A stretch of DNA of 64,000 bases, from positions 5,897,001 through 5,961,000 of the forward strand of contig NZ_CP059322.2 in the NCBI RefSeq assembly GCF_013694245.2. Direction: 5' to 3'. A program made the position numbers and the translations under genes. Under the pieces are notes generated by a model, which was not told the origin of the DNA, did no database searches, and saw nothing but the letters and a program-made list of their open reading frames with translations. Source of the stretch: Micromonospora ferruginea (GTDB taxonomy: Bacteria; Actinomycetota; Actinomycetes; Mycobacteriales; Micromonosporaceae). This document shows positions 1,222 through 11,637 of this stretch, piece after piece (positions within the stretch are counted from its first letter, which is position 1; every line of letters begins with the position of its first letter).

Positions 1222-1740
1222 TCAGCGCGGGCCCGGGTCCTCCAGCAGCGACGGGTCGCGGCGGATCATCTCGGCGAGCCGGGCCGCCGGATCCGACTCC
1301 AGCGGGTCGTGGCCGGGCGCGGCCACCGTCTTGACCGACATCGGCCAGGCCGGCGGCGGCGTCGGCGCGGGCACCGGACCCACCGTCACCTCCGGGCCCG
1401 CCCAGGAGACCCGCAGCGGGTACCCCTGATCGCCCAGCTCCACCCGCAGCGTCACGGCGAGCCCGGGGTGCTCGGCGACCACCCGCCGGACCGCCTCGGC
1501 GACCTCCTCGACCGGGTCCCGGCGCGGGGGCACCCCGGCACCGGGCAGCGGGACGCCGCCCCGCAGCCGGTACGCGCCGTGTCCCGCCCGGCGCTCCGCC
1601 GGCTGGACCCGGTCCGGGCCGTCGACCGGCGTCTCCCGGTCGACCTCCCCGACCGGTTCGCCGGGCAGCGGCACCCGGCGGCGCTGCGCCTCCTCGCGCC
1701 GCGCCAGCCGGGCCAGTGTCTCGTCCAGATCACCTCGCAT
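1222..1740 (-). CDS. Hypothetical protein downstream of the sensor operon
   Basis: A 172-residue protein without a recognised domain. The start is the ATG at 1740 behind a GAGGGGGT stretch. It is rich in Arg, Pro and charged residues in the first half (repeated Arg-Glu/Arg-Arg near residues 10-25). A better ordered segment lies in the middle (EEVAEAVRRVVAEHPG, then LRVELGDQGYPLRVSW), and a Pro-rich linker precedes an acidic C-terminus. There is no signal peptide or membrane segment. It lies 44 bp beyond the GTPase gene of the roadblock operon and 39 bp before the AAA ATPase, on the same strand, so it may be cotranscribed with both. No function can be assigned from sequence. Confidence 0.6.
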   Translation of the reverse strand: MRGDLDETLARLARREEAQRRRVPLPGEPVGEVDRETPVDGPDRVQPAERRAGHGAYRLRGGVPLPGAGVPPRRDPVEEVAEAVRRVVAEHPGLAVTLRVELGDQGYPLRVSWAGPEVTVGPVPAPTPPPAWPMSVKTVAAPGHDPLESDPAARLAEMIRRDPSLLEDPGPR

Positions 1741-1784: not shown

Positions 1785-2546
1785 TCAGCGTTCCCGGGCC
1801 CGGGTCGCCCGGTCCAGCGCCCGATCGAGGACGACCAGCAGGGCGTCCCGTACGGAGAGCCGGTCCCGGGCGTCGAACTGCACCAGCGGCACGTGCTCGG
1901 CGATCGCCAGCGCCCACCGGATCGACGGCAGATCCAGGGCCAGCCGCCCGTCGAAGGCGTTGACGCCCACGGCGAACGGCAGCCCGGCCCGCTCGAAGAA
2001 GTCGATCGCCGGGTAGCAGTCGTCGAGCCGGGCGCTGTCCACCACCACCAGCGCGCCGAGCGCGCCCCGGGCCAGGTCGTCCCACATGAAGCCGAATCGG
2101 GCCTGGCCGGGCGTGCCGAAGAGGTAGAGCTTCAGGCTGCGGTCGATGGTGACGCAGCCGAAATCCATCGCCACCGTGGTGGTGGTCTTCCCGGCCACCC
2201 CACCGGGGTCGTCGACGCCGATCCCGGCGGTGGTCATCTCCGCCTCGGTGGTCAGCGGCGCGATCTCCGAGATCGCGCCGACCGTGGTGGTCTTGCCGAC
2301 GCCGAAGCCGCCGGCGATCAGGATCTTCACCGGGATCGGCGGGCGGGGCGCGGGCACCCGGCTGACGATCGGGGCGGGTTCCCCGGGCCCGCTCGGCGGC
2401 CGGTACGGCAACGGCGGACCGGCCGGCGGGGGCGGCGTGGCCCGGCCGATCAGCGGGGCCGGGTTGCCGTAGCGGGCGGGGGCGCTGTTCGCGGCCGGCC
2501 CGGCCTGGCCGGCCGCCCGCCATTCAGGAGATCGCACGAAGTCCAT
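1785..2546 (-). CDS. Conservon-type small GTPase (CvnD-like, MglA-related)
   Basis: A 253-residue ATP/GTP-binding protein of the family that closes actinobacterial conservons. A Pro-rich N-terminal extension of about 70 residues precedes the P-loop GGFGVGKTT. The other G motifs are FGTPGQ (switch II, DxxG variant) and VGVNAFDG in place of NKxD. The ATG at 2546 overlaps the end of the DUF742 gene by 23 bp; an in-frame TTG lies directly upstream. In characterised conservons the GTPase works at the membrane with the histidine kinase, roadblock and DUF742 proteins encoded beside it, resembling a G-protein-coupled relay. That role is inferred here from operon structure. The signal sensed is unknown. 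Confidence 0.9.
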   Translation of the reverse strand: MDFVRSPEWRAAGQAGPAANSAPARYGNPAPLIGRATPPPPAGPPLPYRPPSGPGEPAPIVSRVPAPRPPIPVKILIAGGFGVGKTTTVGAISEIAPLTTEAEMTTAGIGVDDPGGVAGKTTTTVAMDFGCVTIDRSLKLYLFGTPGQARFGFMWDDLARGALGALVVVDSARLDDCYPAIDFFERAGLPFAVGVNAFDGRLALDLPSIRWALAIAEHVPLVQFDARDRLSVRDALLVVLDRALDRATRARER

Positions 2547-2973
2547 CAATCACTCGCAGGATGAGGTCCGGATCGAGGGCGTCGTCGACGTCCGCGACGT
2601 GCACGTCGAGGTGGCCGGCGGCGCGCAGGTCGCCGACCAGCACCCGGGTCACCCCGAACTGCATCCGGGTCCGGGCGGAGATCTCGGCGACCGACACCGG
2701 CTCGGCGCAGATCGCGACGATCGTGGCCAGTTCCGGTGCCAGCCGCGCGGTCACCGCCCACGAGCCGCTGCCGGGACGGGCGGTCACCTGGGTCTCCAGG
2801 CCGATCGACGGGTCGCCTTCCACCCGTCCGGCGGTGAGCACGAACGGGCGTGGGCCGGGCGGCTCCCCGCCGCCGTCGTCCGCCGCCGGGGCCGGGGTGG
2901 ACGCGCGCAGGAAGGGGCGGATCCGGATGCCGGGTTCCGGCTCCGGGTCCCCACCGGCGGCCCCCGGGATCAT
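2524..2973 (-). CDS. DUF742 protein (CvnC-like)
   Basis: A 149-residue DUF742 protein. The conserved part starts near residue 41 with PRPFVLTAGR, the usual family signature, and continues into a winged-helix-like region (LAPELATIVAICAEPVSVAEISARTR, here split for length as LAPELATIVAIC then AEPVSVAEISARTR). The C-terminus LILRVIDGLRAIS is also typical. The ATG at 2973 overlaps the roadblock stop codon by 4 bp (ATGA), which indicates translational coupling. DUF742 proteins accompany roadblock and GTPase proteins in conservons and may act as DNA-binding or adaptor components; which applies here cannot be told from sequence. Confidence 0.9.
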   Translation of the reverse strand: MIPGAAGGDPEPEPGIRIRPFLRASTPAPAADDGGGEPPGPRPFVLTAGRVEGDPSIGLETQVTARPGSGSWAVTARLAPELATIVAICAEPVSVAEISARTRMQFGVTRVLVGDLRAAGHLDVHVADVDDALDPDLILRVIDGLRAIS

Positions 2974-3434
2974 TGCTGGACGGCGTTCTTCAGTTCGGCG
3001 ATCAGGCGGGGGCTCAGGGCACCGCCGGCGCGGCCGGCGAAGAGCGTCATCTCGTACGCCACGGTGCCCAGGTTGGCTGAGCGGTCGGCGACCACGCCGA
3101 GGACCGAGCCGCTGCTGATCGCGCTGATCAGCAGGTAGCCCTCGGCCATGTCGACGATCACCCGGTTGAGGCCGCCCAGCGCGTACCAGCTCGCGGCGCC
3201 ACCGGCGAGGCTGGTCATGCCGGAGACCACGGCGGCGAGCCGTTCCGCGTTGGACCGGTCCTTGATCGCGGACATGGCCATCAGCAGCCCGTCCGAGGAG
3301 ACCGCGATGGCCTCCATCACCCCGGCGGTGCTCGAGGTGAACGAGTCGAGCAGCCAGTTGAAGGTGCGCGCCTCGGGGCTGAGGTCGCCGGTGGTGCTCT
3401 GTTCGACGTTGTCGTGCAGGAACGGGCTGGTCAC
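2970..3434 (-). CDS. Roadblock/LC7 domain protein (CvnB-like)
   Basis: A 154-residue roadblock/LC7 protein. The core begins near residue 25 (FNWLLDSFTSSTAGVMEAIA) and contains the conserved SSDGLLMAMS strand-turn and the C-terminal helix region VAYEMTLFAG. Family members bind and regulate the partner GTPase, probably as dimers. The GTG start at 3434 overlaps the TGA of the upstream histidine kinase by 4 bp (GTGA), and the stop overlaps the DUF742 start by 4 bp. It is therefore translated as part of a tight kinase-roadblock-DUF742-GTPase unit. The start overlap is also the best evidence for which reading frame ends the kinase gene. Confidence 0.92.
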   Translation of the reverse strand: MTSPFLHDNVEQSTTGDLSPEARTFNWLLDSFTSSTAGVMEAIAVSSDGLLMAMSAIKDRSNAERLAAVVSGMTSLAGGAASWYALGGLNRVIVDMAEGYLLISAISSGSVLGVVADRSANLGTVAYEMTLFAGRAGGALSPRLIAELKNAVQQ

Positions 3435-6380
3435 CGTGATGGATCCTCTTCGTAGCGGCGGTCGGGACTGACTTCGCGCAGCGCACGGGCGACGCCCGCC
3501 TCGAACTCGGTGATGAGGTTGCGGACCTCGACGGGGTCACCGGGGTCGGAGCTGGTGGGGGGCGCGGGCGGCACCGGGGAGACGGACAGGTTCGCGCCGG
3601 GCACCCGCCGGCTGAGCCGGGGCCGTTCCGGTGTCGGTTCGGCCGGGGTGACGTCGTCCTCGGCTCGGCGTACCCCGTCCTGGAACGCCTCCACCAGGGC
3701 GCGGACCGTGGCCGGGTCGTCGGGGACGCCGATCAGCGGCCCGATCACCGGCCCGGCCGGCGCGGACGGTGGGCCGGCCGGCAGGTTCGCGCCCGGCACC
3801 CGCTTGCGGATCGGGCGGGTCCCGGCCGGTCCGGCCGGCGCGCCGACCGGTCCGGGGAGGCGGGCCGGGCGGCCGGCGGGAAGCCGGCGGGCGGCGTCGA
3901 CCGCGGCGCGCCGGCTGGCGGGGTCGGGCCGGCGGGCGCGCGGCGGACCGGCGCGGCGGGGGCCGCCGAGTGGCCCGGGCCGGCGGGGGCCGCCGGGTGG
4001 CCCGGGCCGGTGGGCGTCGCGGGGTGGCCCGGGCCGGTGGGTGCCGAGTGGGCCGGCGTCGGGCGGGCCGGCGTCGGGCGGGTGGGCAGCGGGGCGACGG
4101 CGGGGCCGGTCGTCGGCCCGGCGGCCGGGGAGCGGCCGGTGCCGGGCCGACGACCGGTGTCGGCGGAGTGGTGCCCGCGGGACGCGCCGACGGGCCGGCG
4201 GGAGGCGTGGTGGGCGACCCGGCCGCGGGCGGCCAGGCGGGCGGCGGGCCGCCGGTGGGGAAGCGGAGGTCCTCGGCCGGCGGCGTGTCGACGGCCGGCG
4301 CCGCCGCCGCAACGGGCGAGACGTCGCCCGGCTCCGGCTCGTCGGCCTGGCTGCCGAACGCGTTCCACGAGTCGCCGACGGAGATGCTGCGGGTGGCCCG
4401 GCTCAGCAGTTCGGCGTCGAAGCCGGTGGGCTCGGCGGTGACCGGCGGCGCGGCGAGCGCGTGCTCCGTCGGTTCCGGTCGCCGCTCGACCGCCGGCACG
4501 GCAGCCCGCGCCACGGGCGCCCCCACCGGTTCCGGTCGCCGGATCACCAGCGAGCCGGTCGGGATCTCCACGGCGGCGGTGACGCCGCCACCAAGCGTCG
4601 CCGACAGCCGCACGTTCCAGCCGTGCCGGCGGGCCAGCCGGCCCACCACGAACAGCCCCAGCACCTCGGTCGGGGCGAGGTCGAGCCGCTCCCGCCGGGT
4701 CAGCCGGGAGTTCTCCTCGGCGAGCCGCTCCGCGGTCAGGCCGATGCCGTGGTCCACCACGATCAGCCGGGCGCCGGCGTCGGTCAGCTCGCCGGCCACC
4801 ACCACCCGGGTGTGCGGCGGGGAGAACGAGGTGGCGTTCTCCATCAGCTCGGCCAACGCCAGCACCAGGTCGCCGGCGATCGCGGGCGCGGCCGAGACGC
4901 CGGGCGGGACCTGCACGTCGACCCGGGTGTAGTCCTCGATCTCGCCGAGCGCGAGCCGGACCACGTCGGCCAGCGGCACCGGCGCCACGTGCCCGTCCGA
5001 GCCGGTGGCGCCGGAGAGCACCACCAGGCTCCCGGCGTTGCGGCGCAGCCGGCTGGAGATGTGGTCGAGCCGGTAGAGGTGCTCCAGCCGGCCCGGGTCG
5101 GCCTCCTGCCGCTCCAACCGGTCGATCAGCGCGATCTGGCGGCCGACCAGGTTCTGCGTACGGCGGCCGACGTGACCGAACATCTGCGCCACGTTGCGCC
5201 GGCCGGCGACCTGCCGCTCGACCAGCCGCCCGGCGGTGTGCTGCACCCGGTCGAAGGCGCGGGCCAGGTCGCCGATCTCGTCCCGGGCGCCGACGTCCAC
5301 CGGGTCGAGGCGTACCGGCGGCACCGACTCGGTCTCGTCGTCGGCCACCCGGGTCAGCTCCGCCTCGGTGACCCGGGCGATGCGCTCGGCGGAGCGGGTG
5401 AGCCGGCTCAGCGGCCGGGACACGGTCCGGGCCACCGTCATGCTGAGCAGCACGACCAGGAACAGGATCACGGCCGCCGCGCCGGCGACCAGCCAGGCCG
5501 CGGTGAGCGCGTTCCGCTCCTCGGTCCGGGTCTCCGCGATGACGTCCGCGACGACCTTCTTCTCCACGAACTGGCCCAGCGTGATCATCGAGCGGACCGA
5601 GGGGAAGAGCGCGTCCAGCGGCACCGGGGCGATCGCGCCGACCGGGTCCCGGACGCTGTCCTGGAGGAAGGTCGGGCTGGTCCGGGCCGCCACCGCCGCG
5701 TCGTCCAGCAGGGCCAGCTTGAGCTGCTCCGGCGTGATCAGCCGGCGGAACCGCCGGTTGTCCACGTTGAGCGCCGAGATGCAGGCGATGTACGAGCCGG
5801 CCACCCGCTGGTCGCCGGTCGCCCGGACCAGCACGATCTGGGTGGAGCACGAACTCAACGCCTCGTCGGTACGCAGCAGCGCGTCCAGCGCCAGCACCTG
5901 CCGGCCGGCCGAGGTCTTCGTGTCCACCTGGAACGGCAGCCGCAGCGCGTCGATCAGGGCGGTGTCGACCGCGGCGAACGTGGTGAGGATCTGCTGCGGC
6001 GTGGCCCGCCCGGCGAGCGTCGCGGTGCGGACGTCGGCCAGCCGGCGTACCCCGTCGAGGGCCTCGCGGACCGGCGCCGGCAGCGACTCGGCGCGCAGGT
6101 CGGCGATCCGGTCGTCGACGGTGGCGGACTTCTGGATCAGCTCGGTGCGGTTGACCCGACCGAGCAGCAGCCCGACGGAGAGCAGGCGCTCCTGCTGGAG
6201 GTCCTGGACCAGGCTGCCGATCCGACTGGCGACCCGGACCGTCTCGGCGGTGTCGGCGGCCCGCTGCGCGGCGGCCACCCGGTCGATGACCACCGGCACG
6301 GCCAACCCGACCATGCTGAGCAGCGGGATGATGACCAGCAGGGCGAGTTTGCCCCGGATCCGCAACCTAGCGAGCAGCAT
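3431..6380 (-). CDS. NIT-domain sensor histidine kinase (CvnA-like), apparent frameshift near 3' end
   Basis: This is the sensor kinase of the conservon. From the ATG at 6380 it has TM1 (residues 13-33), a nitrate/nitrite-sensor-type helical domain (about 50-290), TM2 (294-316), HAMP (317-392), a His region with LDHISSRLRRN (His440), and an HATPase domain (500-608) with N-box ELMENATSFSPP and DHGIGL. A long Pro/Ala-rich tail follows. The kinase frame continues to a stop at 3537, but its last ~200 codons look non-coding (Arg/Pro-rich). The expected family C-terminus (RVPGANL twice, then EFEAGVARAL) lies in another frame. That frame ends at 3431 and overlaps the roadblock start. One net frame change between about 4150 and 3900 is needed. 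It may be an assembly error in the GC-rich repeat or a real mutation that truncates only the tail. Confidence 0.82.
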
Positions 6381-7515
6381 CGAACGGCCTCCACCGCTCG
6401 GCCTCGGCGCCCGCGCCGACCCCGACGGGTCGACGGTCGGCGTCGCGGGCGGTGGCCGGTGGGTCCGGGCGGACCGCCGGGGGCAGCGCGGCGTCGGTCG
6501 CCGGGCGCGTCCGGGCGGCCTGGCGCCGGAACAGGGTCAGGGCCAGTCCGATGAGCAGCGCGATCGCCACCCCGGCCGCGACCCGGGCCAGCAGCCGGTC
6601 CCGGTCGAACGAGTCCAGCCGCTTCTCCAGCAGCCGGTCGAGCTGGTCGAGGATGACGGTCCGGAGCTGCTTGGCGGCGGCCTGGGCGGTGATCCCGGCG
6701 GCGGTGAGCTGGTTGGGGTTCGGCGCGGCCTGGCCGCCACCGGCGGCGGTGAACGCTTCGAGGGAGCGCTGGTAGGCGTCCAGCGGGGTGAGCACGTTCG
6801 CGCCCAGGTCGGTGCTCTCCGAGCTGTCCACCGCCGCGCGCAGGTCGGCGACCAGGTCGTTGGCCGGCCCGAACGCGGCGGCGCGCAGCTCGGCCAGTTC
6901 GAGGCCGGTCCTGGCGCGCTGGGCGGCGGGTCGGGTGGGGGCCAGCCGGACCAGGTCGGCGAGCCGGGCGGCCAGCACCGTGGCGGTGGGCAGGTCCCCG
7001 CTGATGCCGTCCTGGAGGAAGAACGAGTCAGGCTCCGGGTCGCGGATCAGGCCGGAACTCTCCCGTACCTTCCGGTAGAGCGCGAGCAGCAGGTCGTTGG
7101 CCTCGCCGTACGCCACGTAGGCGGCCTCCGGGTCGGCGAGCCCCCGGTCCGGCAGACCCTCCAGCTTCGCCCGCAGCCCGGCCCACCGCTCGTGGCTGCG
7201 CAGCTCGTCGCCGACCGCGTCGTCCACCTGTGCCACCTGCTCGATGGCGGCGTTCAGCGCGGTGCGGGAGACCGGCGCCCCGGCGACGGCGGTGGACTGG
7301 GCCTCGACCAGCGCGTCGGTGACCGGCCCCAGGGCGCGCAGGTAGCGGACGCCGAGGCGTTCCCGGCTGGCCAGGTCGTGGTCGTCCGAGGTGTTCCCCT
7401 CGGCGACCGCGAAGAGCAGGCCGAGCGGGGCGACCAGCGCCAGCGCCAGCAGCAGGGGCAGGACGCGGCCCGGTACGGAGGGCCGCCGACGGACCCGCGG
7501 CGCGGGAACGGTCAT
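6367..7515 (-). CDS. Membrane-anchored sensor-like protein without output domain
   Basis: A 382-residue protein with one N-terminal membrane segment (about residues 14-34) and one near the C-terminus (VAAGVAIALLIGLALTLF, about 320-337). About 280 mostly helical residues lie between them, presumably outside the membrane. The stretch DPEPDSFFLQDGISGDLP resembles the extracytoplasmic helical-bundle sensors found in some chemoreceptors and kinases. There is no HAMP, kinase or methyl-accepting domain. The ATG at 7515 has a good ribosome site (AGGAG, 8 nt upstream). Its stop lies inside the kinase gene (14-bp overlap), so the two are coupled. I infer a receptor or co-receptor partner of that kinase; no family name can be given with certainty. 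Confidence 0.75.
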   Translation of the reverse strand: MTVPAPRVRRRPSVPGRVLPLLLALALVAPLGLLFAVAEGNTSDDHDLASRERLGVRYLRALGPVTDALVEAQSTAVAGAPVSRTALNAAIEQVAQVDDAVGDELRSHERWAGLRAKLEGLPDRGLADPEAAYVAYGEANDLLLALYRKVRESSGLIRDPEPDSFFLQDGISGDLPTATVLAARLADLVRLAPTRPAAQRARTGLELAELRAAAFGPANDLVADLRAAVDSSESTDLGANVLTPLDAYQRSLEAFTAAGGGQAAPNPNQLTAAGITAQAAAKQLRTVILDQLDRLLEKRLDSFDRDRLLARVAAGVAIALLIGLALTLFRRQAARTRPATDAALPPAVRPDPPATARDADRRPVGVGAGAEAERWRPFDAAR

Positions 7516-7888: not shown

Positions 7889-10753
7889 ATGAGATCACCC
7901 GTGGCGCGGGTCCGGCGCGCCCTCGCCGGCCACCCGCGCCGGATCGTCGCCGCCGCAGTGGTGGTCGTCCTGGTCGCCGCCGCGCTGCTCTGGGCGGTCC
8001 GGCCGCAGGGCGCGGACTTCCGGACCGAGTCGGCGGTGGTGAACGTCCGCTCCGGGCCCGACGGCGACGAGCCGGTCGACCTGGACACCACGCTCTACCT
8101 GCCGGCCGACGCCTCCGAGACCGACCGGGTGCCGGCGGTGCTGCTCGCGCACGGCTTCGGCGGCACCAAGGAGTCGGTACGCGCCGACGCGGAGGACCTC
8201 GTCGCCCGCGGCTACGCGGTGCTCACCTGGACCGCCCGTGGCTTCGGCCGCAGCGGCGGCCAGATCCACCTGGACAACCCCGACTACGAGGTGCGCGACG
8301 CGCAACGCCTGCTGGACCGGCTCGCCGCCCGCCCGGACATCCGCCTCGACTCGGCCGGCGACCCGCGCGTCGGCGTGGTCGGCGGCTCGTACGGCGGCGG
8401 CCTGGCCCTGCTGCTGGCCGCGCAGGACCCCCGGGTCGACGCGATCGTCCCGATGATCACCTGGAACGACCTGTCCCGCGCCTTCCTGCCGGAGAGCACC
8501 GGCAAGGCGCCGACCGAGGGCGTGTTCAAGAAGGGCTGGGCCGGCATCTTCTTCGGCGGGGGCGGCAACGCCGGCTCCGGCCCGGCCGGACTCTCCGGCG
8601 CCACCGCCGCCGTACCCGAGGGCGCACCCGCCTCGGCCGGTCCGGCGAGCCCGCAGCCGGGCGCCGGTCCGGGCAGCGGCTCCGGCCGGGCGCCCGGTGG
8701 CGCCGCCGACCCGTCCTGCGGCCGGTTCGCCGCCGACGTCTGCGCCGCGTACCTGCGCATCGCCACCACCGGCCGGGCCGACGCCGCCGCGGTCGAGCTG
8801 CTGCGCCGCTCGTCGCCGGCCGGCGTGCTCGACCGGATCAAGGCGCCCACCCTGCTGGTGCAGGGCGAGGCGGACACGCTCTTCCCGCTCACCGAGGCGG
8901 ACGCTAACGCACGCGGCATCGCCGCCGCCGGCACCCCGGTGCGGGTCGCCTGGTTCACCGGCGGCCACGACGGCGGCGCCGGGCCGACGTCCGACTCCGA
9001 CCGGGTGAAGTTCCTGACCGCGCAGTGGCTCGACCACTACGTCAAGGGCGAGGGGGCGGCGCCGGGCGACACCTTCACGTTCTCCCGGATCGCCGGGTTC
9101 GACGCGCTCGACCGCGGCCTGGTGGCCACCGGCTACCGCACCGACGACTACCCGGGCGTGACCGGGCAGCAGCGCCGCGACGTGGCGCTGACCGGCCCGG
9201 CGCAGCCGGTCGCGGTGCCGCCGAACGGCAACCCGGCGGCGATCTCCGCGATCCCGTTCGCCGGGGCGCTCGGCTCGCTGCTGGACGGCGTGGCCGGCGA
9301 CATCCCCGGCCAGCACGCCCTCTTCGAGTCGGCGCCGCTGGACGAGCCGGTCGACGTGGTGGGCGCACCGACCGTGCGGATCCGGGCCGCCTCGAAGACC
9401 GGTGAGGCGGTGCTCTTCGTCAAGCTCTACGACGTCGACCCGCAGGGCGCGTCGACGCTGCCGGACGGCCTGGTCGCGCCGGTGCGGCTGACCGGCCTGC
9501 CGGCCGGCCTCGACGCCGCGACGCCGGTGACCGTCACACTGCCGGCGATCGTCCGGCGGGTCGAGGCCGGGCACCGGTTGCGGCTCGTGGTGGCGACGTC
9601 GGACCAGGCGTACGCGACGCCCGCCGAGCCGGCGGTGCACACCGTGGCGCTCGGCGACGGCCCGGTGGTGCTGCCCACCGTGGACGCCGCGCCGATCCCC
9701 ACCTCGGCCGCGATCTGGCGCTGGGTGCTGGCCGGCCTGCTCGCCGCGATCGTGGCCGGGCTGGTCGTGGTGGTGCTGCTCACCCGCCACCGGCACCGCC
9801 GCCAGGACCGCTCGGTGCACCCGGAGTACGCGGGCGTCCCGCTCGCCGTGCGCAACCTGCGCAAGGAGTACGCGGACGGCTTCGTGGCCGTCTCCGACGT
9901 CGACTTCGAGGTGCACCCCGGTCAGGTGGTGGGCCTGCTCGGGCCGAACGGCGCCGGCAAGACCACCACACTGCGGGTGCTGATGGGGCTGACCCAGCCG
10001 ACGGCCGGGGAGATCTACGTGTTCGGGCACCGGCTGGTGCCCGGCTCGCCGGTGCTCTCCCGGATCGGCGCGCTGGTCGAGGGGCCGGGCTTCCTGCCGC
10101 ACCTGTCCGGGCTGGACAACCTGAAGGCGTACTGGCGGGCCACCGGGCGGCCGTGGGAGGACGCGCACTTCGACGAGGCGCTGGAGATCGCCGGCCTGGG
10201 CGACTCGGTGCACCGGCGGACGAAGAAGTACAGCCACGGCATGCGGCAGCGGCTCGCCATCGCCCAGGCCATGCTCGGCCTGCCCGAGCTGCTGGTGCTC
10301 GACGAGCCGACGGACGGGCTCGACCCGCCGCAGATCGCCGAGATGCGCCGGGTGCTCCAGCGCTACGCCACGGACGGCCGGGCGGTGCTGGTCTCCAGTC
10401 ACCTGCTGGCCGAGGTGGAGCAGACCTGCACCCACGCGGTGGTGGTCAACAAGGGGCGGATCGTGGCGTCCGGCCCGGTCGAGGAGATCGTCGGCGAGTC
10501 GCCGAGCGTGCTGTTCGAGGTGAGCGACCCGGACGCGGCGCGGTCGGTGCTGGACCGGCTCGGCGGCGTACGGGTGCTGCCCGACGACGACGGGGCGCTG
10601 GTGGTCGACACCAACGGCACCGCCCGCAGCGAGGTGGTGGCCGAACTGGTCCGGGCCGGCATCGGGGTGGACCGGGTGGTGCCCCGGCGTCGCCTGGAGG
10701 ACGCGTTCCTCGCCCTGGTCGGCGAGAACTCTCGGGGAAGCGGTGACCGGTGA
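7889..10753 (+). CDS. Alpha/beta hydrolase (X-Pro peptidase S15/CocE-like) fused to ABC transporter ATPase
   Basis: A 954-residue fusion. TM1 (about 18-37) is followed by an S15/CocE-type alpha/beta hydrolase with nucleophile motif GGSYGG (Ser167), likely Asp329 (GEADTLFP) and His360 (TGGHDGG). A beta-rich domain of the X-Pro peptidase C-terminal type spans about 400-590. TM2 is about 609-631. A full ABC ATPase runs from 650: Walker A GPNGAGKTT (685-693), signature YSHGMRQR (781-788), Walker B LLVLDEPTDG (801-810), H-loop SSHLL. The two membrane segments place the hydrolase outside and the ATPase inside. The start ATG at 7889 is chosen because it opens directly into the signal-anchor; an in-frame upstream extension lacks coding character. 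It overlaps the permease gene, so the pair forms an exporter whose substrate may be processed at the surface. The substrate is unknown. Confidence 0.88.
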   Translation: MRSPVARVRRALAGHPRRIVAAAVVVVLVAAALLWAVRPQGADFRTESAVVNVRSGPDGDEPVDLDTTLYLPADASETDRVPAVLLAHGFGGTKESVRADAEDLVARGYAVLTWTARGFGRSGGQIHLDNPDYEVRDAQRLLDRLAARPDIRLDSAGDPRVGVVGGSYGGGLALLLAAQDPRVDAIVPMITWNDLSRAFLPESTGKAPTEGVFKKGWAGIFFGGGGNAGSGPAGLSGATAAVPEGAPASAGPASPQPGAGPGSGSGRAPGGAADPSCGRFAADVCAAYLRIATTGRADAAAVELLRRSSPAGVLDRIKAPTLLVQGEADTLFPLTEADANARGIAAAGTPVRVAWFTGGHDGGAGPTSDSDRVKFLTAQWLDHYVKGEGAAPGDTFTFSRIAGFDALDRGLVATGYRTDDYPGVTGQQRRDVALTGPAQPVAVPPNGNPAAISAIPFAGALGSLLDGVAGDIPGQHALFESAPLDEPVDVVGAPTVRIRAASKTGEAVLFVKLYDVDPQGASTLPDGLVAPVRLTGLPAGLDAATPVTVTLPAIVRRVEAGHRLRLVVATSDQAYATPAEPAVHTVALGDGPVVLPTVDAAPIPTSAAIWRWVLAGLLAAIVAGLVVVVLLTRHRHRRQDRSVHPEYAGVPLAVRNLRKEYADGFVAVSDVDFEVHPGQVVGLLGPNGAGKTTTLRVLMGLTQPTAGEIYVFGHRLVPGSPVLSRIGALVEGPGFLPHLSGLDNLKAYWRATGRPWEDAHFDEALEIAGLGDSVHRRTKKYSHGMRQRLAIAQAMLGLPELLVLDEPTDGLDPPQIAEMRRVLQRYATDGRAVLVSSHLLAEVEQTCTHAVVVNKGRIVASGPVEEIVGESPSVLFEVSDPDAARSVLDRLGGVRVLPDDDGALVVDTNGTARSEVVAELVRAGIGVDRVVPRRRLEDAFLALVGENSRGSGDR

Positions 10754-11637
10754 TGGTGGACTCTCAGGTGGCGCCGAAAGGCAGTGGCGGGGCGGCGGCC
10801 GGCTACCGGCCGTCGGCCACGATGCCGTTCGGGGCGGAGTTCCGGCGGCAGGCGTCGCGCCGGCGTACCCAGTTGGCGCTGGGGTTCATGGTGCTGCTGC
10901 CGTTGATCATCCTGGTGGCGTTCCAGTTCGACTCCTCAGACGACGACGGCGGCGGGCGAGGCGAGTTCGCCAGCCTGGCCGACCTGGCCACGTCGGGCGG
11001 GCTCAACTTCACCCTGTTCTCCATCCTGGTGTCGGCGTCGTTCCTGCTGGTCGTGGTGGTGGCGCTGTTCTGCGGTGACACGGTGGCCAGCGAGGCGAGC
11101 TGGGGCAGCCTGCGCTACCTGCTGGCCGTGCCGGTGCCCCGGGCCCGGCTGCTGGCGGTGAAGCTGGTGGTCGCACTGGCGTACTCCGGCCTGGCGCTGC
11201 TGCTGTTGGCGGGCACCGCGCTGGTCGCCGGCACGCTGCGCTACGGCTGGAAGCCGCTGAGCAGCCAGGTCTCCGCCGAGCTGGCCCCGGCGGACGGGCT
11301 GCTGCGGCTGCTCGGGGTGCTCGGCTACCTGGCGGTGGTGCTGCTGGTGGTGGCCGGGTTGGCGTTCCTGCTGTCGGTGACCACGGACGCCGCGCTCGGG
11401 GCGGTCGGCGGGGCGGTGCTGCTCTGGATCCTGTCCAGCATCCTCGACCAGATCACCGCGCTGGGCGGGCTGCGCAACCTGCTGCCGACCCATTACAGCA
11501 GCGCGTGGCTGGGGCTGCTGTCGTCGCCGATGCAGACCGACGACGTGGTCAAGGGCGCGATTTCGGCGGTCGTCTACGCCACGCTGTTCTGGTCGCTCGC
11601 CTTCTGGCGCTTCACCCGCAAGGACATCACCAGCTGA
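10750..11637 (+). CDS. ABC-2 type transporter permease
   Basis: A 295-residue permease with six predicted membrane segments. The first is near residues 43-60 (LALGFMVLLPLIILVAF), followed by an extracytoplasmic Asp/Gly-rich loop (SSDDDGGG). The motif DTVASEASWGSLRYLLAVPVPR, split here as DTVASEASWG and SLRYLLAVPVPR, is typical of ABC-2 export permeases. The GTG at 10750 overlaps the upstream stop by 4 bp (GTGA); an ATG at 10753 is the alternative. It partners the hydrolase-ABC fusion, giving a two-gene exporter that probably works as a dimer. It is followed directly by a copy of the dispersed 3'-end repeat. Confidence 0.88.
   Translation: MMVDSQVAPKGSGGAAAGYRPSATMPFGAEFRRQASRRRTQLALGFMVLLPLIILVAFQFDSSDDDGGGRGEFASLADLATSGGLNFTLFSILVSASFLLVVVVALFCGDTVASEASWGSLRYLLAVPVPRARLLAVKLVVALAYSGLALLLLAGTALVAGTLRYGWKPLSSQVSAELAPADGLLRLLGVLGYLAVVLLVVAGLAFLLSVTTDAALGAVGGAVLLWILSSILDQITALGGLRNLLPTHYSSAWLGLLSSPMQTDDVVKGAISAVVYATLFWSLAFWRFTRKDITS

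Follow-up and report, generated by a model that had tools for sequence, protein, structure and literature searches.

The DNA analysed here (the window) is a stretch of 64,000 nucleotides from Micromonospora ferruginea, contig NZ_CP059322.2. On its minus strand lies a conservon, the actinobacterial G-protein system whose core genes follow the order CvnA to CvnD (kinase, roadblock protein, DUF742 protein and GTPase; PMC13343842, PMC8510531). The core order was found here by Pfam, with a NIT, HAMP and HATPase kinase as in other conservons, but in this locus an extra gene for a membrane protein, named P1 in this work, precedes and overlaps the kinase gene. The features were located as follows (positions are those of the window):

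6367 to 7515, minus strand: P1, a putative stand-alone sensor protein with two transmembrane helices and no output domain (382 amino acids, ATG start at 7515)

7405 to 7461, minus strand: transmembrane helix 1 of P1, residues 19-37 (from hydropathy; the model has a helix at 18-77)

6595 to 7404, minus strand: ectodomain of P1, residues 38-307 (predicted to adopt the NIT fold, with NasR 4akk as the best match)

6538 to 6594, minus strand: transmembrane helix 2 of P1, residues 308-326; a tail of some 55 residues comes after it

6388 to 6395, minus strand: Shine-Dalgarno-like GGTGGAGG of the kinase, within the last codons of P1 (from sequence and duplex energy)

6367 to 6380, minus strand: overlap of 14 bp between the end of P1 and the start of the kinase

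3431 to 6380, minus strand: CvnA-type kinase with NIT, HAMP and HATPase_c domains (Pfam; ATG at 6380)

2970 to 3434, minus strand: CvnB-type roadblock/LC7 protein (PF03259)

2524 to 2970, minus strand: CvnC-type DUF742 protein (PF05331; start site approximate)

1785 to 2549, minus strand: CvnD-type GTPase (PF03029; start site approximate)

P1 was compared across 141 loci: 70 from a sample of Micromonosporaceae genomes (the 30 best matches, M. ferruginea included, and 40 mostly from other genera), 69 from named records (Micromonospora, Plantactinospora, Dactylosporangium, Asanoa, Actinoplanes and relatives) and two from Streptomyces plasmids. One locus at the same place as another (L001, as L002) and two loci of methyl-accepting chemotaxis proteins (MCPs; L141 and L144) were left out, and the 141 loci are not independent, because some species occur in both sets. 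Conservation across these loci ruled out a chance open reading frame (ORF). Two transmembrane segments were detected by Kyte-Doolittle hydropathy in P1 (residues 19-37 and 308-326) and in 127 of the 141 loci, that of M. ferruginea among them, with three segments in 12, one in 1 and four in 1. The mean charge of the 127 two-segment proteins was positive before the first segment and after the second, and slightly negative after the first, which fits an N-in, ectodomain-out, C-in topology. The AlphaFold model of P1, built from a 64-sequence alignment, was all-helical, with eight helices (mean predicted local distance difference test score, pLDDT, 84.5; predicted template modelling score 0.76) and a tail disordered from about residue 340.

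P1 had no match at E ≤ 1 in either Pfam or NCBIfam, and none among PDB sequences at E ≤ 5. With alignment A1 (48 P1 members), each Pfam family matched at most 2 members and the PDB sequence search gave two weak matches, both unrelated; with alignment A3 (64 members), a single NCBIfam family was matched, in 1 member. The Pfam scans showed no MCP signalling domain (PF00015) in P1, and the ORF stops after the second transmembrane helix and a short tail. Twenty-four columns were invariant in the 64 sequences, including M1 and A380, and the motif S-x-L-x-x-D-P-x-x-D was spotted by eye in the ectodomain. An earlier note on this DNA had described a two-transmembrane protein with a helical extracytoplasmic domain and no signalling domain, overlapping a NIT-kinase gene by 14 bp and followed by kinase, roadblock, DUF742 and GTPase genes; these observations were confirmed by hydropathy, charge and the model, by the absence of Pfam and NCBIfam matches, by the positions of the kinase ATG (6380) and the end of the P1 stop codon (6367), and by Pfam, respectively. 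Its statement that classical conservons start with the kinase also agrees with the legend of Fig. 1 in PMC13343842.

In each of the 141 loci, P1 was the gene immediately preceding the kinase, the two genes overlapping by 14 bp in 121 and by 11 bp in 20 (start codons picked by similarity). The sequence ahead of the kinase start paired with the 16S tail at a mean of -8.5 kcal/mol, and at -6 kcal/mol or lower in 133 of the 141 loci, compared with a mean of -4.6 kcal/mol for ATG/GTG codons within P1 that share the kinase frame, taken as controls (103 of 385 at -6 kcal/mol or lower); P1's own start reached this value in 138 loci. This energy test supersedes an earlier loose pattern count, in which a ribosome-binding site was assigned to the kinase in 77 of the 141 loci. 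The overlap and the embedded ribosome-binding site suggest that translation of P1 and of the kinase is probably coupled. The C-terminal end of P1 is conserved (RWRPFDAAR and RRERSGALR, for example) and the remaining tail variable; this end was considered as a protein motif and rejected, since the overlap and the kinase start signals that lie there probably account for much of its conservation.

The closest listed solved fold for the ectodomain model, not mentioned in the earlier note, was NasR. Structural alignment to 4akk gave a Z of 21.6 (root-mean-square deviation 3.1 over 252 residues; next row 13.2), with P1 model residues 32-302 on residues 9-287 of the 4akk chain, a stretch corresponding by residue numbers to the NIT domain of NasR (PMC7496416). 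The kinase itself has a NIT match (PF08376, E 1.3e-11), and the model of its residues 1-400, used as a positive control (pLDDT 84.7), also had 4akk as best match (Z 25.1 over 260 residues; next row 9.7); the helix layouts of the P1 and kinase ectodomain models are alike. Rows for TorS-TorT, PilJ and PcaY_PP, at Z 11 to 13, represent the helical-bundle background. Foldseek with the P1 model returned nothing at E ≤ 0.001, its top rows being TolC-like (TM-score about 0.2), and scored P1 against 4akk at E 0.042 with probability 1.0. PF08376 was found neither in P1 (E ≤ 1) nor among the families listed for the 48 members (E ≤ 0.1), and P1 was rejected as a detectable sequence relative of the kinase NIT domain (profile-profile probability 0.4%, only the transmembrane stretch aligning). 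As the fold matches while profiles and Pfam do not, P1 is, according to its predicted model, a far-diverged sequence family with the NIT fold.

P1 thus shares the fold of the NasR NIT domain but differs from NasR in being membrane-anchored, in having no ANTAR output and no Pfam NIT match, and in lacking a conserved NasR-like arginine where one would be expected in helix 1. No arginine conserved in at least 90% of sequences was found within P1 residues 38-77 in A1 or A3. Alignment A2 (12 P1 sequences) lists R51 and R60, both closer to the membrane than the surroundings of residue 72, where the arginine would be expected by an approximate positional equivalence. In the kinase NIT domain, Q62 and R65 are invariant, which fits the nitrate-binding motif G-x-x-R, in which Q replaces G in NasR (PMC8199190). 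We infer from these alignments that P1 would not bind nitrate in the manner of NasR.

The likeness to chemoreceptors proposed in the earlier note held by sequence. The 48-sequence P1 profile aligned over the full length from first to second transmembrane helix with five output-bearing proteins, at E values of 1e-35 to 3e-16 that hold for small local sets: an Azohydromonas MCP (L141; profile 18-332, E 2.8e-25, with the MCP signalling domain present in Pfam), an Ideonella protein annotated as an MCP (L144; E 3.4e-16), a GGDEF-EAL protein from another family of the phylum, whose output part was identified by eye (L157), and two hybrid histidine kinases carrying the P1-type sensor module (L188 and L189). 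These proteins have a homologous membrane-ectodomain-membrane part and outputs of their own, whereas P1 has none; the alignment therefore presents P1 as a free-standing receptor half of a module that recurs. A motif like S-x-L-x-x-D-P-x-x-D recurs by eye in all five, and Pfam scans of L141 and L188 left the sensor part uncovered by any model above the cut-off. Judged from these alignments, the P1-type module is perhaps an undescribed sensory domain family.

P1 is almost always inherited together with the adjoining kinase. Among 250 Micromonosporaceae genomes, P1 was found in 181 and the kinase in 177 (cut-offs E ≤ 1e-3 and E ≤ 1e-100, lists matched by hand); 176 had both, 5 only P1, 1 only the kinase and 68 neither, and 5 genomes of the same genus lacked both at these cut-offs. 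Three of the genomes with P1 only (G038, G118, G133) do carry a kinase immediately after P1, one with a lower score. The M. ferruginea genome has a single P1 at E ≤ 1 and 11 kinase matches, 8 of them, including the partner kinase, below 1e-40; the single-copy statement rests on the whole-genome P1 search, the flank check of the paralogous kinases having covered the upstream gene in part where the match set in mid-protein. The earlier note had proposed looking for P1 with the same kinase in other genomes and for P1 away from conservons: every stand-alone P1 whose neighbourhood was read adjoins a conservon-type kinase, in the 141 loci and likewise in L159, L160, L161 and L164, a result that does not refute the note's reading. 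Among the loci L032-L071, each about 12 kb long, roadblock and DUF742 genes followed downstream in all 40 and the GTPase in 39 (it was not found in L055).

Outside the family, stand-alone P1 appears rare. P1 matches were obtained in 3 of 296 genomes of a phylum sample (M. ferruginea, one congener and one GGDEF-EAL fusion), and in a genus of the same class, g50, probably Streptomyces, the plasmid P1 used as query matched 2 of 392 genomes, both times within larger kinases. From these searches, stand-alone P1 is almost restricted to one family, with the reservation that remote relatives may be missed because single proteins were used as queries. Two Streptomyces linear plasmids (L142 and L143) carry the complete five-gene unit. 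In L142 the annotated genes overlap by 14 bp; L143 shows this overlap if the homologous start is chosen, its public record starting the kinase further in, without overlap. The plasmid-borne unit suggests horizontal transfer.

P1 has no output domain, its gene stands just ahead of the kinase and its fold is common with the kinase sensor; for these reasons we favour, with some confidence, the interpretation that P1 is a dedicated extracytoplasmic co-receptor of the conservon, acting on the NIT domain of the kinase through a putative contact. P1 would be a stand-alone copy of the sensor module that other proteins join to an output for chemotaxis, cyclic-di-GMP or histidine-kinase signalling, and the overlapping genes would couple its translation to that of the NIT-bearing kinase. 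Since P1 lacks an output domain, it would most likely signal sideways, its ectodomain and transmembrane helices packing against the NIT and transmembrane helices of the kinase; a signal on P1 would then alter kinase activity and hence the roadblock/DUF742/GTPase switch. The fold match suggests a concrete geometry for this, the packing of NIT on NIT. More tentatively, and with chances somewhat short of even, the receptor may be a two-chain assembly of the kinase's NIT subunit with a NIT-fold subunit that lacks an output; encoded by overlapping genes and passed on as a pair, the two would jointly read two signals before setting the GTPase.

Several points weigh against the co-receptor. The physical contact between P1 and the kinase is something that we infer, as are ligand sensing by P1 and the direction of regulation, and both structures are predicted models between whose sequences no profile-level similarity was found. 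The NIT domain of the kinase makes a second sensor unnecessary in principle, and translation of the kinase could also start independently of P1, from a ribosome-binding site of its own. The two remaining genomes with P1 only, G002 and G005, both fragmented assemblies, have P1 matches and only weaker kinase matches, and G023 has a kinase without P1 upstream (locus L158). That kinase has 51% identity, and the frame upstream of it looks by eye like a cyclopropane-fatty-acid synthase; the locus offers a natural comparison without P1. Because G023 keeps a kinase without an upstream P1, P1 is not strictly required. The co-receptor reading of the earlier note is partly supported: one conservon kinase has a dedicated gene for a sensor without output, while contact with the kinase, the flow of a signal and the five-gene relay are putative.

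Coevolution was also considered, and rejected, as proof of contact. Over 120 loci (effective number 64), the mutual information of P1 with the kinase was reached by 3 of 40 nulls with swapped pairings and is not significant; 161 of the 200 top pairs fell on NIT columns, which make up 223 of the 328 kinase columns, and the top pairs joined P1 positions 236 and 241 with kinase positions 84, 215, 223 and 226. In distance matrices, the partial r between P1 and NIT was 0.775 in 96 loci, and with unrelated-neighbour controls 0.355 (63 loci) and 0.363 (46 loci), values matched by an unrelated neighbouring gene against NIT in the same sets (0.378 and 0.317). The nearest neighbour of a P1 was within the three nearest neighbours of its kinase in 123 of 144 loci (L161 being entered with the wrong P1 ORF). 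The mutual information and the distance matrices speak neither for nor against a contact.

Four other roles for P1 were weighed. It is conceivable, though unlikely, that P1 is no ligand sensor but a constitutive brake or an assembly partner, which fixes the NIT/transmembrane dimer of the kinase in one state or is required for the kinase to fold. The overlapping genes suggest a fixed ratio of P1 to kinase, and helix 1 of P1 has no conserved arginine where NasR would lead one to expect it, which also agrees with such a role; on the other hand, the P1 ectodomain is complete and has the S-x-L-x-x-D-P-x-x-D motif common to the output-bearing receptors, and the kinase of G023 is retained without P1 upstream.

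TorT is a solute-binding protein that docks on the receptor TorS, and P1 might similarly be a docking receptor for a periplasmic-type solute-binding protein, relaying to the kinase. Directly after the GTPase, both Streptomyces plasmids carry a gene for a substrate-binding protein of the Peripla_BP_6 (branched-chain amino acid) type (12205-13443 in L142, where the Pfam match was obtained, and 12204-13442 in L143), and by analogy with TorT and TorS this protein could deliver a ligand. It was found in none of the 142 other loci, among which L001-L031, with flanks of 1.5 kb, are too short to show it, and the presence of TorS-TorT among the fold matches of P1 (Z 12.9, 121 residues) has to be read against a helical-bundle background near 13. 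We consider docking improbable.

Very unlikely, in our estimate, is the explanation that P1 is co-expressed with the conservon but serves another partner, for example through its C-terminal tail or the divergently transcribed neighbour. The latter (7889 to 11637, plus strand) encodes an S15-peptidase domain and an ATP-binding cassette (ABC) ATPase domain in one protein and is followed by an ABC-2 permease gene; in 107 of the 141 loci a gene of this kind adjoins P1, no more than 1.5 kb upstream, but it was not found in the other 34, where P1 and kinase remain paired. The model shows the tail as disordered, and its sequence varies apart from the end that overlaps the kinase start signals. That P1 is mainly a leader cistron setting kinase translation, the protein itself being of little importance, is hardly credible: the gene overlap and the embedded ribosome-binding site would suit it, but a complete folded receptor domain is conserved across genera, with its fold retained and 24 invariant columns.

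Two further features of the operon were noted. In the Pro/Ala linker of the kinase, a one-base insertion or deletion in a run of C was found with respect to a close relative (L072), whose frame stays open; it may be a sequencing error or a real frameshift. The mechanically called kinase ORF accordingly spans 3537-6380, and the conserved C-terminus, with RVPGANL repeats overlapping the roadblock start, lies in another frame. There, RLSRRVPGANL and IRKRVPGANL resemble, without an exact match, the C-terminal LPxR motif described for CvnA (PMC4316618). The second feature lies after the GTPase:

1222 to 1740, minus strand: small uncharacterised ORF, with a similar stretch in other loci and no Pfam match

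Similar stretches were found in 64 of 89 loci with at least 700 bases past the GTPase (tblastn E ≤ 0.01), their place directly after the GTPase being displayed for 4 of the 64; the ORF is possibly a sixth member of the operon.

Two accessories of conservons have been described, CvnE (a P450) and CvnF (a GAF protein), which follow the core genes, occur overwhelmingly with kinases without a sensory domain and are proposed to provide sensory input to the kinase; CvnF8 binds CvnA8 and stimulates its ATPase and autophosphorylation (PMC13343842). P1 is likewise an accessory gene in a conservon, but it is upstream, membrane-embedded, extracytoplasmic and NIT-fold, and accompanies a NIT-bearing kinase. 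The Pfam families with a match in at least one of the 48 members (16 families, E ≤ 0.1) included neither P450 nor GAF. P1 was therefore rejected as a CvnE/CvnF-type accessory, given its upstream position in all the loci, the lack of P450 or GAF and the NIT domain of its partner; it is another class, one that may work like an accessory sensor. The literature search, which extended to the open-access PMC papers and left subscription papers outside its scope, turned up no account of a membrane accessory encoded upstream in conservons. The published survey near cvnA targeted the CvnE and CvnF protein groups, so another accessory class would go uncounted in it (PMC13343842).

If true, the two-chain receptor would add a third class to the known conservon accessories, contrary to the published pattern of accessories with sensorless kinases. 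The sensory inputs of conservon kinases are described as largely unexplored (PMC13343842). A compact pair of kinase and putative sensor is widespread in the Micromonosporaceae, and with it the question of what the kinase reads, and through which of the two chains, would become addressable with two genes, in a family known for its antibiotics.

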